Source of the DNA: Desulfoarculaceae bacterium
GTDB lineage: Bacteria; Desulfobacterota; Desulfobulbia; Desulfobulbales; Desulfocapsaceae
Reading direction: 5' to 3'
DNA length: 49,073 bases
NCBI GenBank assembly: GCA_019429465.1
Contig: JAHYIV010000020.1
Span: forward strand, 1 to 49,073
Positions 10,063 through 49,073 of this stretch are shown piece by piece (the stretch's first letter is position 1; the number at the start of each line of letters is the position of its first letter). A model generated the notes under the pieces. It did no database searches, was not told the DNA's origin, and saw nothing but the letters and a program-made list of their open reading frames with translations. The position numbers were made by a program, and so were the translations under genes.

Positions 10063-10203
10063 ATCATTCAGAGTTCTTTACCATTTGCACCAAAAACTGT
10101 CAACACCTGCCCGAAACAAGCTCTCATTTAAAAAAAAACAAATTTGTAATATTCGATCGAGAAACATTGCATTTTCTGGTATAAGTATCTCCATCTAACT
10201 TTA

Positions 10204-10277
10204 GAGCCTTACAGATTATTTTCTTGTTTTTAAGAAAATAATCTGCGAAAGGCACTTATCCCCTTCATCGGGGTTAG
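10204..10277 (-). repeat. Palindromic repeat, family A (copy A1)
   Basis: About 74 bases, ending in GGGGTTAG on the plus strand and centred on inverted arms around CAGATTATTTTCTTG and its complement. It matches three other copies at 21267, 32927 and 35739. This copy is in the leader of the sigma-54 activator gene, so it would form a hairpin in that transcript. It carries CCCCTTCATCGGGG instead of the CCCGTTCATCGGGG form of the others. Confidence 0.9.
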
Positions 10278-10319
10278 GTATAAATTTGCCCCTCAACAAT
10301 CAATCGAAAAATATTCACC

Positions 10320-11882: not shown

Positions 11883-12442
11883 AAATCTTCCTTCATATCT
11901 GTTGCGGACCATGCGCCATATACCCGTTAACACAATTACAAAACAAGGGGCTGGAGGTCCATGGATATTTTTACAACCCGAACATTCACCCATACCGTGA
12001 GTTCAAAAAACGAATAGAAGGGCTTGAGCAACTCGCTCAGATAGTTCACCTGGAGGTAGATATTGACAGAGAATATGGCCTTACCGAGTATTTACGGAAG
12101 GTGGTTTTTCATGAGCAGGAACGATGTCCAGTTTGTTATACCATGCGTTTGAAAACAGTAGCGCGACTGGCTAAGGAGAGGGGAGACGATGCTTTCTCAA
12201 CCACTCTTTTATACAGTAAATACCAGGATCATGACCGCATTCGTAAAATCTGTGAAGATCTAGCCCGCAAATATCAGATTGATTTTTATTATCAGGACTT
12301 CAGAGAAGGGTGGCAGGAAGGGATCGACAGATCTCTGGAGATGGAATTATATCGACAGCCATACTGTGGTTGTATATATAGTGAACAGGAACGATACGAC
12401 AAGTCACTCAACAAGAAAGTTCAAAAAAAAACTTTATTATAA
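11879..12442 (+). CDS. queH: Epoxyqueuosine reductase QueH
   Basis: QueH reduces epoxyqueuosine to queuosine in tRNA wobble position 34, the final step of the pathway, using iron-sulfur chemistry; it replaces QueG in many anaerobes. The 187-residue protein (old name DUF208) begins HICCGPCAIYPL (Cys9, Cys10, Cys13), has CPVC (Cys83, Cys86) and later YCGCIYS, the full set of metal-binding cysteines expected for the family. It overlaps the preceding activator by four bases. Its stop codon TAA is immediately followed by repeat C1 (12443). With cmoA and cmoB this is a second U/G34 modification gene in the window. Confidence 0.93.
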   Translation: MKIFLHICCGPCAIYPLTQLQNKGLEVHGYFYNPNIHPYREFKKRIEGLEQLAQIVHLEVDIDREYGLTEYLRKVVFHEQERCPVCYTMRLKTVARLAKERGDDAFSTTLLYSKYQDHDRIRKICEDLARKYQIDFYYQDFREGWQEGIDRSLEMELYRQPYCGCIYSEQERYDKSLNKKVQKKTLL

Positions 12443-12621
12443 GGGACTCGGAAAATACCGATGTACCTGAATTGCGACTGGATTTGGGTCGGATTTGGTT
12501 GCACCGATTGAGTAAAACCGCAGATGTAGTTGCGCTACATCGAGGATTTTGCGATTGAAGTGCGGTCAAAGATGGCCCGAAGACAGGAAGCAAGATGGTG
12601 TATCAGTATTTTCCGAGTCCC
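12443..12621 (-). repeat. Inverted-repeat element, family C (copy C1)
   Basis: A 179-base element with terminal inverted repeats GGGACTCGGAAAATAC and GTATTTTCCGAGTCCC. The interior has a conserved core including TCGATG and GCGGTTTT words. Relative to C2-C4 it is inverted. It starts directly after the queH stop and ends 17 bases before rdgB, so it forms nearly the whole spacer. No ORF of its own is credible; it would need a transposase elsewhere. Confidence 0.92.
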
Positions 12622-20867: not shown

Positions 20868-22055
20868 GTGATATCTTTAAATAAAAGCGCCTTAAGTCAA
20901 AGACTTTATGCTATTTTTACAAATGCCCTGGAGAACAACAATTTCCCCGGCGCTGCAGTTGGAATTTCGCTATGGAATGGGAAAAAATATGACGGAAATA
21001 TCTATTATTATGGTTTAGCTCAATCTTGTCCGGAAAGAGTTCAACTTACCCGTGATACTTTTTTTGATCTGGCCTCTTTAACAAAACCATTGGCCACAGT
21101 TCCAGCTTTATTGTCTTTAATGGAAGAGGGGAGAATAACATGGAATATGAATCTTGGTAATATCTTTCCCGCGGAAATTCCGGAAGATAAAATTTCTATT
21201 ACGATAAAGCAGTTGATGTCGCACTGTTCAGGTTTACCAGCCCATAAGGAATATTTTAATAAATTACTAACCCCGATGAACGGGATAAGTGCCTTTCGCA
21301 GATTATTTTCTTGTCAAAAAAACAAGAAAATAATCTGTAAGGCACTAAAATTGACGGGCGGTGAAAAAAAAACAGTGTTCAAATGGATAGTAAATGAAGA
21401 ATTATCCTATCCACCAGGAGAGGATAATTTATACAGTGACCTGGGTTTTATCCTGTTGGGTTTTATAATAGAAAAAATATCAGGGGAAAACCTTGATGAG
21501 TATGTAAAGAAAAAAATTTATACACCCTTAAACTTGCAAAACAGCCTTTTTTATGCAGAAAAGGCAAAACTGGGGTTTGCGTATGCGGCGACGGAAAAAT
21601 GTCCATGGGCGGGTGAAATACTATCTGGAAGGGTCCATGATGATAATTGCCGAGCCCTGGGGGGAGTTGCCGGACATGCAGGGCTTTTCGGAACAATAGA
21701 TGGCGTGGTTCAATGGTGCGAACATTTACTTTCTCAAGTGAAAGGAAGAAGTAAACATCCTTCCTATGGGAATGAACTCGTAAGAATGGCAGTGACGAAA
21801 GAGGGTCTCTCCGGCTGGACACCTGGGTTTGATACGCCTTCTGCAACAGGCTCAAGCAGTGGCCGCTTTTTTTCATCATCCAGTTTCGGTCACCTTGGCT
21901 TTACCGGGACATCCTTCTGGATTGATCCTCAAAAAGAACTGATCATCGTCTTATTAACCAACAGGGTACATCCGAATAGGAATAATGAATTAATTAGAAA
22001 ATTCAGACCATTATTTCATGATACCGTTATGCGTTGCTTATCTGCAGGGCAATAA
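20868..22055 (+). CDS. Serine hydrolase, beta-lactamase class C/penicillin-binding family, with in-frame repeat insertion
   Basis: The 395-residue protein has the serine hydrolase motifs Ser70-Leu-Thr-Lys73 (SxxK), Tyr189-Ser-Asp191 (YxN-like) and a late HLGFTG (HxG-like), with TFFDLASLTKPLAT and LMSHCSGLPAH around them. No signal peptide is visible, so it may be cytoplasmic, as in many such esterase-like proteins. Residues 134-160 are encoded by palindromic repeat A2; in relatives I remember, NKLL runs straight into the next helix. The fold is likely tolerant because the insert is in a surface loop between motifs 1 and 2. GTG start; no good ribosome site is seen. Substrate unknown. Confidence 0.8.
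   Translation: MISLNKSALSQRLYAIFTNALENNNFPGAAVGISLWNGKKYDGNIYYYGLAQSCPERVQLTRDTFFDLASLTKPLATVPALLSLMEEGRITWNMNLGNIFPAEIPEDKISITIKQLMSHCSGLPAHKEYFNKLLTPMNGISAFRRLFSCQKNKKIICKALKLTGGEKKTVFKWIVNEELSYPPGEDNLYSDLGFILLGFIIEKISGENLDEYVKKKIYTPLNLQNSLFYAEKAKLGFAYAATEKCPWAGEILSGRVHDDNCRALGGVAGHAGLFGTIDGVVQWCEHLLSQVKGRSKHPSYGNELVRMAVTKEGLSGWTPGFDTPSATGSSSGRFFSSSSFGHLGFTGTSFWIDPQKELIIVLLTNRVHPNRNNELIRKFRPLFHDTVMRCLSAGQ
21267..21346 (+). repeat. Palindromic repeat, family A (copy A2), inside a coding sequence
   Basis: The 80-base element runs from CTAACCCCGATGAACGGG to AAGGCACT with arms CAGATTATTTTCTTGT and its inverse around six A bases. It is read in frame without stops in the serine hydrolase gene, adding about 27 residues. 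The other copies (10204, 32927, 35739) are intergenic. This recalls the Rickettsia palindromic elements that insert into genes in frame. Confidence 0.93.
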
Positions 22056-27809: not shown

Positions 27810-28094
27810 ATGAAGATAACAAAAGAAGAAGTTGAGAGGGTGGCACATCTGGCCCGGTTGAATCTGAGTGCAGAGGAGCTGGAGACCATGACCAGTCAGC
27901 TGGACACCATCCTCTCCTATGTGGCCAAGTTAGAAGAACTGGACACCACCGGCGTCCAACCAATGACCCATGCCTTTGCCGAAGCCAATGCCTTTCGTGA
28001 AGACAGGGTGACCGGTTCGCTGGCCAGGGAAGAGGCCCTGGCCAATGGCCCTTGCCAGAACGGCGAGGCCTTTGTCGTGCCGAAGATTATTTAG
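27810..28094 (+). CDS. gatC: Aspartyl/glutamyl-tRNA amidotransferase subunit C
   Basis: GatC stabilises the GatAB complex, which turns Glu-tRNA(Gln) or Asp-tRNA(Asn) into Gln- or Asn-tRNA. The 94-residue protein has EEVERVAHLARLNLSAEEL, QLDTILSYVAKLEELDT and the terminal FVVPKII, all typical. The stop codon TAG lies in the first bases of palindromic element D1. gatA follows only after about 490 bases filled by repeats D1 and B1, whereas the pair is usually close together. gatB is not in the window. Confidence 0.93.
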   Translation: MKITKEEVERVAHLARLNLSAEELETMTSQLDTILSYVAKLEELDTTGVQPMTHAFAEANAFREDRVTGSLAREEALANGPCQNGEAFVVPKII

Positions 28095-28248
28095 AGGCCG
28101 TTATGAAACAAGCAAGGTTTTTTTCTTGCTTGTTTCATTTACGGACTCTTATGCCGCATCCAGGAAACAGCAATCTGTTCTGCTGTTTCCTGGTGTGGCG
28201 ACTGGCAGATTACATCTGCCGTAGGTCATACAAGGTGCCATTATGAAA
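28093..28248 (+). repeat. Modular palindromic element, family D (copy D1)
   Basis: Begins AGAGGCCGTTATGAAA at the gatC stop, and contains two perfect 12-bp hairpins: GAAACAAGCAAG/CTTGCTTGTTTC (28105-28116, 28125-28136) and CCAGGAAACAGC/GCTGTTTCCTGG (28160-28171, 28182-28193). Its close match is D2 at 35478, which starts at the tolC stop in the same way. It could act as a terminator or RNA stabiliser for the upstream gene. Confidence 0.88.
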
Positions 28249-28329
28249 TAAATTGTCTCTTTGTGACTATTTATTAATGGCTCATTCATGCCATTTTGGC
28301 CATAGGTGCCCAAGTTGTTTCCAATTATT

Positions 28330-28508
28330 GATGGCGTCGTAAAAAGTCGCCAACTGCTTCGTTGCTGCAGGTAAGCGAGGTCACGAGACTCCGAATTATC
28401 TCGTCACTGCGGCGTACTCAAGTACGCCTCATTCCTCGAAATTTGCGCGCCTCGCATTTGACGCTTTTTACTTAGCCATCCCAGAAATTGAGTTTTTACG
28501 AAACCATC
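28330..28508 (-). repeat. Transposon-like element (MITE), family B (copy B1)
   Basis: Terminal repeats GATGGCGTCGTAAAAA and TTTTTACGAAACCATC are near-inverse; the interior includes the palindrome GGCGTACTCAAGTACGCC. A 7-bp direct repeat AATTATT flanks it (28323-28329 and 28509-28515). It is inverted relative to B2 and B3 and has about 24 extra bases. No ORF is credible. It lies in the gatC-gatA spacer. Confidence 0.92.
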
Positions 28509-28583
28509 AATTATTTATTTATAATGGCTTGGAAATTGATGGATAAGGTTTAGAGAGCAGAGCGATTATTTTTTGAGGTACCA

Positions 28584-32596: not shown

Positions 32597-32926
32597 GACG
32601 ATCACTTTAAGAAAAAGGAGGATGTGTTGTCTCCGGTCAAGTAGACACCTACCAGAGACAAGATGCTATAATTTGCTGCAAACTTTACTATACCTGCAAT
32701 AGGGTGGACGTCAAGCAAATTTGGAGAATGAACAGCGGTGGTGATAAAATTCTTGATCCACCCCCTGAAGAATGGTAACCAAATGGTTCGCATGGGTAAA
32801 TCTTAATCAAGATGGATACGGTTCAGGTGGAAAAACAGGCCGTGGAGCTTGTGGTCTGGAGAATAAGGCCATTGACGGTTGCCAACCATTCGTTATCTCT
32901 CTCCATGAGAGAATTCGCGCCTTTTT
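32597..32926. other. Intergenic DNA between pal and the DUF2721 gene, left part
   Basis: These 330 bases hold the pal leader and promoter, then a GC-mixed stretch without a credible gene. Several glycine-rich frames can be read, but none resembles a protein family. Repeat A3 occupies the right side. Confidence 0.5.
32687..32714 (-). promoter_or_regulatory. Sigma-70-type promoter of pal
   Basis: On the minus strand TTGACG and TATAGT are separated by 16 bases, 5 of 6 matches for each box. The predicted start of transcription is about 85 bases before the pal ATG, leaving a leader. Confidence 0.6.
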
Positions 32927-33006
32927 AGTGACTTACAGATTATTTTCTTGTTTTTTTTGCAAGAAAATAATCTGCGAAAGGCACTTATCCCGTTCATCGG
33001 GGTTAG
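32927..33006 (-). repeat. Palindromic repeat, family A (copy A3)
   Basis: An 80-base copy, reverse orientation, starting AGTGACTTACAG and ending GGGGTTAG, with arms around CAGATTATTTTCTTG. It is intergenic, 74 bases before the DUF2721 gene, and nearly identical to A4 and A2. Confidence 0.93.
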
Positions 33007-33079
33007 AATAGATCAACCAGAATCTGTTCGAGGGAGGCTTTTTTTGTCAACAGAGCCGTAAACAAGGGTAATTATTGCC

Positions 33080-33514: not shown

Positions 33515-33693
33515 GGGACGCGGAAAATACTCATCTATCCATCTTGTTTCCCGTCTTCGGGCCAGTTTTGACTGCACCTCAATCGCAAAATCCTCGATGG
33601 AGCGTAACTACATCTGCGGTTTTACTCAATCGGTGCAGCCAAAACTGGCCACAATCCATTTGCAATTCAGGTACATCACTATTTCCGAGTCTC
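33515..33693 (+). repeat. Inverted-repeat element, family C (copy C2)
   Basis: 179 bases, GGGACGCGGAAAATACT at the left and a slightly decayed ATTTCCGAGTCTC at the right. It begins at the base after the DUF2721 stop TAA. Interior words (CATCTGCGGTTTTACTC, CAATCGGTGCAGCC) match C1 and C4. Confidence 0.92.
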
Positions 33694-34145: not shown

Positions 34146-35480
34146 ATGATTATGTACAGAATATCAATTGCTTTGTCAGTTGTTTTGATGGCCTGTCTTG
34201 CTCCTGTTCTGGTTGTTGCAGGAGATCCCGAGGCAGCGCGGCCGACCGTCTGGACAGCCCGTCAGGCCGTAGAATTTTCGCTGGCCAACAGCCCGGACAG
34301 TCAGGTGGCCCTCCAGAGGATAGAGGCGGCCAGGGCTATTGTGGATCAGGTCAAGGCAGGTTATTATCCGCAGATCGGCCTTAATGCTGAATATACCCAG
34401 ACCAATAACCCGATGTACTCCTTTGGCAATATCCTTAATCAGGGACAGTTTGATGCTCAGTCCATTGATTTTAACAATCCAGGCCGGACCGATAATCTGA
34501 ATCTGCGGGCGGCCCTGCAATACCGGTTCTATAATGGCGGGCGTGATCAGGCCGGGGTCGAGGCGGCTGAGGCCGGCGTTGTGGTATCGGAGCTGGAGCA
34601 GGTGGCGGTACAGTCCCGGCTTGGTTTTGAGGTGGTACGCACCTTTCATGCCATTGCCCAAGCTATGGAGATGCTGGATGCCCATCAGGCGTCCGTCAAG
34701 GCGATAGGCGCCTCCCTGGTCGTGGCCCGGGCGCGCTTTGAGGCCGGTGATCTGCTGAAGGCAGACCTGCTGAATATCGAGGTGCAGGAGTCGATGGCCA
34801 GGGAGAATCTGATCCTGGCGGAGCATAGCCTGGAGCTTTCCCGCAAGGCCTTTCTTCATCTTCTGGGTTTGCGAGAAGGACAGGTATTTATTGATTCCTT
34901 CCAGGAGAGCGAGCAGATGCTTCCGGAAGAGCGCAGTTATGTGAACCGGCCGGAGCTCAAGGCTATTGATGGTCAGATTGAGGCGGCAGAGGCGGAGTTA
35001 CGCGTGGCCCGGGGGGGACTCTATCCCACGGTTGATGGTCTGGCCCATTATCAGATTGACGGCGGCCTGGTTTTGAATGGCTCCGGAAACTCCTGGATGG
35101 GAGGACTACGGGTGAATTACCCCCTGTTTACCGGGGGTAAGATTGAGGCTGACATTGCCAATGCCAAGGCGATCATTGCCAGATTGACGTCCGAAAGGAA
35201 GAAACTGGAACTGACCCTGGATTTTGAGGTAAAGCAGGCGGAACTTGCCTGCAAACAGGCGGAACAGCGGTTGCATGTTACCGAAAAGATGTCTGAACAG
35301 GCGCTGGAGAGCGCCCGCCTGAGCCGGATACGTTTCAAGGAGGGAGTGATTCTTGCAGCTGATCTTATGGATATTGAAACACGGCTGACCGAGGCTCAGG
35401 TGCGACAGACGGTCGCTCGAACAGCCATCCGGGTGGCTGTTGCCGATCTACGCCGGGCCACAGGGGTGCCGCAGTTTTAG
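34146..35480 (+). CDS. TolC-family outer-membrane efflux protein
   Basis: The 444-residue protein has a signal peptide (about 1-26, ending VVAG), then two long helix-rich repeats with WTARQAVEFSLANSPDSQVALQRIEAA, DQVKAGYYPQIGLNAEY and later AEAELRVARGGLYPTVDG and VKQAELACKQAEQRLHVTEKMSEQAL, the typical TolC/OEP pattern. It is the outer-membrane channel of a three-part pump whose adaptor and inner-membrane genes follow at 35861 and 36943. The start at 34146 has AGGAAAA upstream. Its stop codon TAG lies in the first bases of element D2. Confidence 0.93.
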   Translation: MIMYRISIALSVVLMACLAPVLVVAGDPEAARPTVWTARQAVEFSLANSPDSQVALQRIEAARAIVDQVKAGYYPQIGLNAEYTQTNNPMYSFGNILNQGQFDAQSIDFNNPGRTDNLNLRAALQYRFYNGGRDQAGVEAAEAGVVVSELEQVAVQSRLGFEVVRTFHAIAQAMEMLDAHQASVKAIGASLVVARARFEAGDLLKADLLNIEVQESMARENLILAEHSLELSRKAFLHLLGLREGQVFIDSFQESEQMLPEERSYVNRPELKAIDGQIEAAEAELRVARGGLYPTVDGLAHYQIDGGLVLNGSGNSWMGGLRVNYPLFTGGKIEADIANAKAIIARLTSERKKLELTLDFEVKQAELACKQAEQRLHVTEKMSEQALESARLSRIRFKEGVILAADLMDIETRLTEAQVRQTVARTAIRVAVADLRRATGVPQF

Positions 35481-35738
35481 AGGCCGTTATGAAACAAGCA
35501 AGGTCTTTTTCTTGCTTGTTTCATTTATGGACTCTTATGCCGCCTCCAGGAAACAGCAATCTGTTCCGCTGTTTCCTGGAGTGGCGACTGGTAAATTACA
35601 TCAGCCGTAAATCATACAAGGTGCCGTTATGAAAAAAGCAGTGCTTTTCTGCTTTTTTTATTACGGCATCTTATGCCGCTTCAAAGAAACAGCCAATCTT
35701 TTCCGGCTGTTTCTTTGAGTGACGTCTGGCAGATACAC
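35478..35738 (+). repeat. Modular palindromic element, family D (copy D2), two tandem modules
   Basis: It starts AGAGGCCGTTATGAAACAAG at the tolC stop and repeats the two hairpins of D1 with point changes. A second, diverged module follows (GTGCCGTTATGAAAAAAGC then a GAAACAGCC/GGCTGTTTC hairpin). The tail runs straight into A4. It sits between tolC and the adaptor gene of the same operon. Confidence 0.85.
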
Positions 35739-35819
35739 CTAACCCCGATGAACGGGATAAGTGCCTTTCGCAGATTATTTTCTTGCAAAAAAAAACAAGA
35801 AAATAATCTGTAAAGCACT
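35739..35819 (+). repeat. Palindromic repeat, family A (copy A4)
   Basis: 81 bases, CTAACCCCGATGAACGGG to AAAGCACT, abutting the end of D2 with no spacer. Arms CAGATTATTTTCTTG and inverse surround nine A bases. It lies 41 bases before the adaptor gene. Confidence 0.92.
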
Positions 35820-35860
35820 CAATATATATTTTTTATACGTAGAGAAGGGGAAGGCAGACT

Positions 35861-42469: not shown

Positions 42470-42764
42470 ATCCTGCAATCATCCCGCATTCGGTCGTCAT
42501 TACAGACACATCTGCTGCGCCGGCTGCGCTGAAATCCGTTTGCCTCCTTGCATCCGTACCTGTCTTAACGCCGTCTATGCTCGAACGATTGATGGTTTCG
42601 TAAAAACTCAATTTCTGGGATGGCTAAGTAAAAATCGTCAAATGCGAGGCGCGCAAATTTCGAGGAATGAGGCGTACTTGAGTACGCCGCAGTGACGAGA
42701 TAATTTGCAGCAACGAAGCAGTTGGCGACTTTTTACGACGCCATCAACGATTGCAGGAATCAGG
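42465..42764 (+). repeat. Inverted-repeat element, family E (copy E2), interrupted by B2
   Basis: Ends CCTGAATCCTGCAATC and GATTGCAGGAATCAGG are inverse copies with one mismatch. The inner words (GCGCTGAAA, CCTTGCATCCGT, CTATGCTCGAAC) match E1 read in reverse. B2 is inserted 12 bases before the right terminal repeat. E2 lies in C3. Confidence 0.88.
42591..42745 (+). repeat. Transposon-like element (MITE), family B (copy B2)
   Basis: 155 bases with ends GATGGTTTCGTAAAAA and TTTTTACGACGCCATC. A perfect 7-bp direct repeat AACGATT flanks it (42584-42590 and 42746-42752), one copy of which belongs to E2. The interior matches B3 and B1 including GGCGTACTTGAGTACGCC. Confidence 0.93.
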
Positions 42765-43006
42765 AATATACCATCTTGTTTTCCGGCTTCGGGCCATCTT
42801 TGACCACCGCACCTCAATCGCAAAATCCTCGATGGAGTGCAACGACATCTGCGGTTTTTTTTCTCAATCGGCGCAGCCAAATATGGCCAAAATCCAGTCA
42901 TAATTCAGGCACATCAGTATTTTTCGAGTCCCCAGACTCTCCCGTTTATTTTCCCGGTGTCGAGCCGGGCTGGGGCACCTTTCCTCTCTGGTTGATCTCT
43001 TTATTG

Positions 43007-44693: not shown

Positions 44694-44872
44694 GGGACGC
44701 GGAAAATACTACTATACCATCTTGCTTCCCGTCTTCGGGCCATTTTTGATCGAACCTCAAGCAAAAAATCCTCGATGGAGCCCAACGACATCTGCGGTTT
44801 TACTCAATCGGTGCAGCCAGATCCGGCCCAAATCCAGTCGCAATTCAGGTAAATCAGTATTTTCCGAGTCCC
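44694..44872 (+). repeat. Inverted-repeat element, family C (copy C4)
   Basis: 179 bases, GGGACGCGGAAAATACT to AGTATTTTCCGAGTCCC, intact. It lies 58 bases before ectB, so it forms part of the upstream region of the ectoine genes and may separate them from an older promoter. Confidence 0.93.
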
Positions 44873-44930
44873 TTACGCAACATGACTATAACTGTAACTA
44901 ATAACCAAACTTTTTCAGACGGAATATAAC

Positions 44931-48936: not shown

Positions 48937-48952
48937 CGTTGGACACAAGATT

Positions 48953-49073
48953 GATGGTTTCGTAAAAACTCAATTTATGAGATGGCTAAGTAAAAAGCGT
49001 CAAATGCGAGGCGCGCAAATTTCGAGGAATGAGGCGTACTTGAGTACGCCGCAGTGACGAGATAATTTGCAGC
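48953..49073 (+). repeat. Transposon-like element (MITE), family B (copy B3), cut by window end
   Basis: Starts GATGGTTTCGTAAAAACTC and is almost identical to B2 up to the last base (ATAATTTGCAGC), so the right end lies outside the window. The left flank is ACAAGATT. It has the GGCGTACTTGAGTACGCC core palindrome. Confidence 0.93.

Follow-up and report, generated by a model that had tools for sequence, protein, structure and literature searches.

The stretch of DNA analyzed here (the window, 49,073 nucleotides) comes from a draft genome of 2.84 Mb, in which it is contig 41. It contains a gene for a predicted serine hydrolase whose reading frame runs through 395 codons with no stop and no frameshift, and whose PF00144 match (Pfam, E 4e-43) covers residues 16-374. 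Within this gene lies a copy of a palindromic repeat that spans positions 21267-21350. The features of the locus are listed below, with the evidence for each in parentheses.

20868..22055, + strand: gene for a 395-aa serine hydrolase (beta-lactamase/PBP-like, PF00144), with the insert read in frame (ORF, Pfam, orthologue alignment)
21267..21270, + strand: target tetranucleotide CTAA, left flank of the insert (empty sites; CTAA at this place in 115/197 copies)
21271..21348, + strand: inserted element, 78 nt, read as TPMNGISAFRRLFSCQKNKKIICKAL, 26 aa, residues T135-L160 (absent from 26/26 aligned orthologues)
21272..21284, + strand: short left hairpin CCCG-ATGAA-CGGG (fold; the core recurs in divergent relatives)
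21288..21346, + strand: long main hairpin (fold; compensatory changes)
21345..21348, + strand: right-end CTAA, borne by the element (CTAA in 161/197 copies, unmatched to the left tetranucleotide)

The fold energy of the window copy is -38.8 kcal/mol (z -7.67 relative to 200 shuffles). The insert is flanked by the motifs SLTK (residues 70-73) and YSD (residues 189-191), and the latter is present in all 26 aligned orthologues. The first-pass annotation had placed the repeat at residues 134-160, between an SxxK and a YxN motif, with the catalytic motifs kept on both sides. Motifs are indeed kept on both sides and SLTK fits SxxK, but the second motif is Y-S-D rather than YxN. Likewise, the position was right, but the net insert comprises residues 135-160, residue 134 being the leucine of the target codon. 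A single-sequence AlphaFold model of the protein (mean pLDDT 35.6) is useless, and PDB matches align too loosely at the insert for the loop to be placed.

The window carries four copies of the family in total. The ORF list agrees with the earlier description of the other three as intergenic.

10197..10286, - strand: intergenic copy between tRNA-Ser and a regulator-like gene (repeat comparison, ORF list)
32923..33006, - strand: copy taken as intergenic; an ORF at 32772-33011 that crosses it was judged spurious by eye (repeat comparison, ORF list)
35739..35822, + strand: intergenic copy between two same-strand genes (repeat comparison, ORF list)

We take the regulator-like neighbor of the first of these copies to be of the sigma-54 type, and the genes around the third presumably encode a membrane fusion protein and an efflux protein of the outer membrane. 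Repeat comparison also revealed further interspersed families in the window, with units of roughly 50-190 nt that are up to 98% alike and occur in both orientations.

28090-28281 and 35476-35667: further repeat family
12440-12621, 33535-33684, 42767-42858 and 44694-44875: further repeat family
28389-28511, 42587-42711 and 48949-49073: further repeat family

An orthologue search over 38 genomes, the source genome included, identified 26 loci with an orthologue of the serine hydrolase, all of which were aligned. The insert is missing from every one of them, including eight from the same genus that are 62-73% identical to the window gene. The nearest empty site (locus L032) reads AAATTATTAAAACTG, whereas the window reads AAATTACTAA, followed by the insert and AATTG (AAATTA-CTAA-insert-AATTG). 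Besides the insert, the two differ by two substitutions and otherwise match base for base. Across the alignment of 26, orthologue lengths differ beside the insertion site. Eight of the 16 congeners yielded no orthologue, because the best match fell on the repeat or was lacking; several of these genomes are incomplete, and these congeners are not counted among the 26. The copy in the serine hydrolase gene is a genuine insertion and belongs to a dispersed family of palindromes. This bears out the earlier proposal that a palindromic repeat is translated in frame within the serine hydrolase, since the frame is intact, the family is dispersed, and the 26 aligned relatives lack these residues. Comparison of the window gene with its three nearest orthologues gives dN/dS values of 0.14-0.17 at dS near 1 (0.10-0.19 over the five compared), although most of the divergence behind this ratio predates the insertion, so that it is no evidence for a working altered protein.

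The left arm of the element has 113 matches in its own genome when up to three mismatches are allowed, and the reversed control pattern has none. This is a repeat family far beyond chance. Each of 16 congeners has 1-65 left-arm matches (controls, 0), and the element occurs in every one of the 17 genus genomes covered by the search. In a set of genomes drawn from the phylum, 41 of 395 (own genome included) gave matches, many of them weak. A scan of named genomes found at least 75 stretches with the element, and among the matches listed, 66 of 75 titles are Desulfobulbaceae, Desulfocapsaceae or Desulfocapsa; the others are Proteobacteria (3), Deltaproteobacteria (3), Syntrophus (2) and Rhodocyclaceae (1). 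The contig labelled Rhodocyclaceae (L124, element at 231-255) belongs to an isolate series (ppb) that also yielded a Desulfocapsa MAG, and mis-binning is therefore likely. No match was found among phages, plasmids and viral contigs, the last searched by exact pattern. Rfam gave 12 matches with E values up to 1, comprising miRNA-like hairpins and one sRNA, all under the curated score. The right-end CTAA is retained in divergent forms, which either have the left core CCCCGAT(A/G)AACGGGATAAG as well or carry a different short hairpin in its place. A sister type was observed in other families of the phylum (part of loci L139-L154); its right end is similar, and its left end reads, for example, CTAATGCGGG...CCCGCAAATAAGTGC.

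The anatomy of the element was established from 254 HMM hits, of which 230 were full and 197 distinct once duplicates and copies near locus ends had been dropped. These comprise 103 copies from the source genome (where the pattern count is 113), 81 from named loci and 13 others, with loci L260 and later excluded. In aligned copies, CTAA/CCCC is seen at the left and CACTAA at the right. The left tetranucleotide is CTAA in 115/197 copies and differs in the other 82, the right one is CTAA in 161/197, and both are CTAA in 99/197. Common unmatched left/right pairs are TTAA/CTAA and CTGA/CTAA (11 each), and among the 40 commonest pairings the matched non-CTAA pairs are CCAA/CCAA and CGAA/CGAA only. 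The two tetranucleotides seldom match when they are not CTAA, which argues that the left one is a degenerate target, that the right one is part of the element, and that no target duplication is formed. The insertion, its ends, its target, its reading frame and the copy numbers of the family are shown by these analyses.

Compensatory changes are seen in the stem of the element. Among 182 distinct sequences, 9 of 10 consensus stem pairs include two-sided changes that preserve pairing. By stem-pair cell, 92 changes are two-sided, 51 one-sided and 95 broken, with 1582 cells unchanged; these are inherited within subfamilies and are non-independent events. The DNA hairpin rather than the peptide is probably what the family keeps. 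When longer, autonomous copies were sought in the family, one longer copy was found, of about 240 nt (L102, 5891-6130), whose loop seems by eye to be filled by another repeat and not by a gene. Several composite arrangements were also observed. In L102 5891-6130 and in L145 at about 1430-1554, the loop contains additional sequence that has inverted repeats of its own, which looks like the insertion of a second element. At L029 (1501-1661) two head-to-tail copies have one CTAA in common, which would fit a model in which a copy can use the right-end CTAA of its predecessor as target. In L026 and L028, around 1501-1582, copies are centered in another palindromic sequence, and the flanks are nearly complementary.

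Copies within genes are uncommon. ORF tests with and without the element yielded 30 candidates, 20 with a frame that reads through the copy and 10 with one that appears only when the copy is removed; ORFs shorter than 34 codons on one side were left out. Twelve candidates were searched against Pfam and 18 were judged by eye. At least 2 of 197 copies are verified as intragenic and in frame, namely the copy in the window gene and one in a gene for a class I glutamine amidotransferase in congener G010. In the latter the Pfam match extends across the insert, which is missing from the 14 of 14 other loci of the genus that were aligned. Congener G003 provides the empty site, and its flanks are 82 and 90% identical to those in G010; in our alignment, CGAG is the left target in G010 and corresponds to CTAA in G003. 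Both verified copies are 78 nt long, whereas the commonest insert length, 77 nt (64/197), would shift the frame. A Pfam search of ten candidates, four entered with one side of the site only, gave no match for eight. At L084, a copy of 79 nt is located beside or within a fragment of an hsdS-like restriction gene (Pfam match under the curated cut-off), a frame that a copy of this length would break. At L250, Pfam places a phosphopantetheinyl transferase downstream of the copy. Among 20 congener loci, most of them picked because the open frame around the element peptide was longer, no interrupted gene could be recognized by eye. Even if all 20 copies with a spanning open frame are counted, they amount to about a tenth of the 197, and a large share within genes was not found. 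Where 1 kb of flanking sequence is available on each side (154 copies), long ORFs define 90 tandem, 32 divergent and 21 convergent neighborhoods, with 11 unresolved. Judged by ORF tests rather than gene calling, most surviving copies look intergenic, and in-frame insertion is the exception in this family. A search for other genes that carry the repeat, which the first-pass annotation had suggested, thus adds one verified case. Its broader proposal that such repeats could be a way in which new peptide loops arise finds no support in the sense of a general route, given at least 2 of 197 copies in verified genes and open frames not clearly above what a palindrome is expected to give.

The explanation that best fits these observations, and one that we consider very probable, is that a non-autonomous hairpin mini-element with single-strand-type mobility inserted in frame and was kept in a loop of the serine hydrolase. 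The element would be a mobile, hairpin-forming unit of ∼78 nt that inserts just 3′ of a CTAA-like tetranucleotide and brings its own CTAA at the right end. Such polarity would resemble that of single-strand HUH mini-elements of the IS200/IS605 or REP type. In the serine hydrolase, a copy whose length is a multiple of three would have struck the CTA-A codon phase in a loop, at a site where orthologues tolerate changes in length. The frame would have stayed open and the copy been retained, adding 26 residues. The enzyme that moves the element and the activity of the altered protein are at most matters that we infer. An oriented left target, an element-borne right tetranucleotide and the lack of target duplication are found in the 197 copies and at both empty sites. 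The Y1 transposase family was searched for in the source genome, the genus and 19 other genomes, and element ends were sought in 63 loci from the larger listing of Y1 matches. No linked transposase was found among these 63; a single locus has a copy of the element, at a distance of over 1 kb from the Y1 gene. The orientation of copies relative to local GC skew has no clear bias (positive for 45/98 own-genome and 45/80 named-locus copies), and the stretches compared are short.

This arrangement can be compared with known mobile elements. IS200/IS605 elements have subterminal hairpins and do not duplicate their target; a target tetranucleotide flanks them on the left, and a similar one terminates their right end (PMC6006769). 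The family described here is like them in all these respects, as far as that source describes them, but has two strongly unequal hairpins, a degenerate target and no Y1 gene with its ends in the 63 loci. The targets of IS200/IS605 elements are not known to be as degenerate as those seen here, with 82/197 non-CTAA tetranucleotides. REPs of the GTAG and CGTC types are dispersed hairpins with stems of 5-13 bp that are mostly intergenic and lie in ORFs of several species; the CGTC type is apparently without a dedicated transposase (PMC3733652). Our family is similarly dispersed, mostly intergenic and sometimes within ORFs, but differs from the REPs as described there in its CTAA tag and in having a short left and a long right hairpin in a 78-nt unit. 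It also differs from GTAG REPs in that no linked RAYT/Y1 gene was found (1/63 Y1 loci with a copy, at >1 kb).

Three other explanations were weighed against a single-strand-type mini-element kept in a loop. A classical MITE, with terminal inverted repeats (PMC3733652), a DDE transposase and a 4-nt target duplication, would also be small, non-coding and present in many copies, and both flanks are CTAA in 99/197 copies. However, the ends of the element (CCCCGATG and TTAGTGCC) are not mutual inverted repeats, flanking tetranucleotides other than CTAA seldom match each other, and the target has a fixed orientation relative to the element. The element thus differs from classical MITEs in having neither terminal inverted repeats nor a target duplication, and we consider this origin very unlikely. 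Targets of the IS5 group are YTAR. There is a small but real chance that the serine hydrolase is instead a young pseudogene, its function ended by the insertion or by a strong mRNA hairpin and its open frame a matter of luck. The hairpin is strong, the copy is near the family consensus and hence probably young, and no orthologue was found in 8/16 congeners, some of whose genomes are incomplete. This explanation must be set against 395 codons without a stop or frameshift, the conservation of the flanking motifs and the variation in orthologue length beside the site.

It could also be that the translated frame itself is selected, with the element built for readability in genes as a supplier of peptide loops, an idea already put forward for palindromes that code for protein. 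Because CTAA contains TAA, a gene can hold CTAA in two sense phases only and TTAG in two antisense phases. Of 59 copies whose length is a multiple of three, three of these allowed frames are open in 43, 49 and 46 copies, respectively, and the fourth in 6, compared with 17-23% for simple shuffles. Such open frames show how insertion can be tolerated, and there are two clean in-frame cases. However, in a rough control that preserves the palindrome, at least three of the four are open in about 12.5% of random elements, whereas the copy in the serine hydrolase gene has only two open frames. Nine divergent relatives that were checked have 0-2 open frames, two of them none, and three of the nine are not a multiple of three in length. 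The frame-shifting commonest length, the count of at least two in verified genes and the compensatory changes in the stem also speak against selection for reading, which strikes us as highly improbable. The number of open frames does not clearly exceed what palindromes of similar composition produce, and the readability of the element is most likely a by-product.

Palindromes inserted in proteins are known in Rickettsia, as the first-pass annotation noted, and also in other genera (PMC3733652, PMC5896051). The Rickettsia elements (RPEs) are palindromic repeats in frame in unrelated genes, to which they add tens of residues; they are about 150 bp long, and nearly half of those in R. conorii lie in ORFs. 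According to the review that gives these figures (PMC10969869), it is not uncommon for intragenic MITEs to be fused in frame, and RPEs do so with exceptional frequency. Compared with RPEs by description, the CTAA family shares the in-frame palindrome in conserved genes (26/26 and 14/14 aligned homologues here are without the insert), but at least 2 of 197 copies are in verified genes and the unit is 78 nt. Dimers or groups of REPs in ORFs encode 20 to 30 amino acids, and insertion into linkers or loops has been discussed (PMC3733652). QMITE2 of Coxiella burnetii is likewise a small repeat in frame in some ORFs, but its described cases concern hypothetical proteins or the 3′ end of a gene (PMC5896051). 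Translated intragenic palindromes have therefore already been described in Rickettsia and several other genera, and the element reported here is a further case.

Among the papers listed for such repeats in Desulfobulbaceae, organisms with other Desulfo- names and Geobacter (PMC2700814), none could be recognized as describing the CTAA family; multicopy families of Geobacter may be relatives. Our findings point to a palindromic element family with a CTAA tag instead of GTAG or CGTC, of which no description was found among the papers listed. A wider and more tentative reading is that a superfamily of CTAA-tagged two-hairpin mini-elements extends across several families of the phylum, possibly moved in trans by a putative single-strand transposase and occasionally writing 26-residue loops into enzymes. 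The glutamine amidotransferase of G010 provides a second, independent in-frame case. The serine hydrolase is an exactly mapped example of a mobile hairpin adding a loop to a predicted enzyme, with 26 loop-free relatives for comparison.
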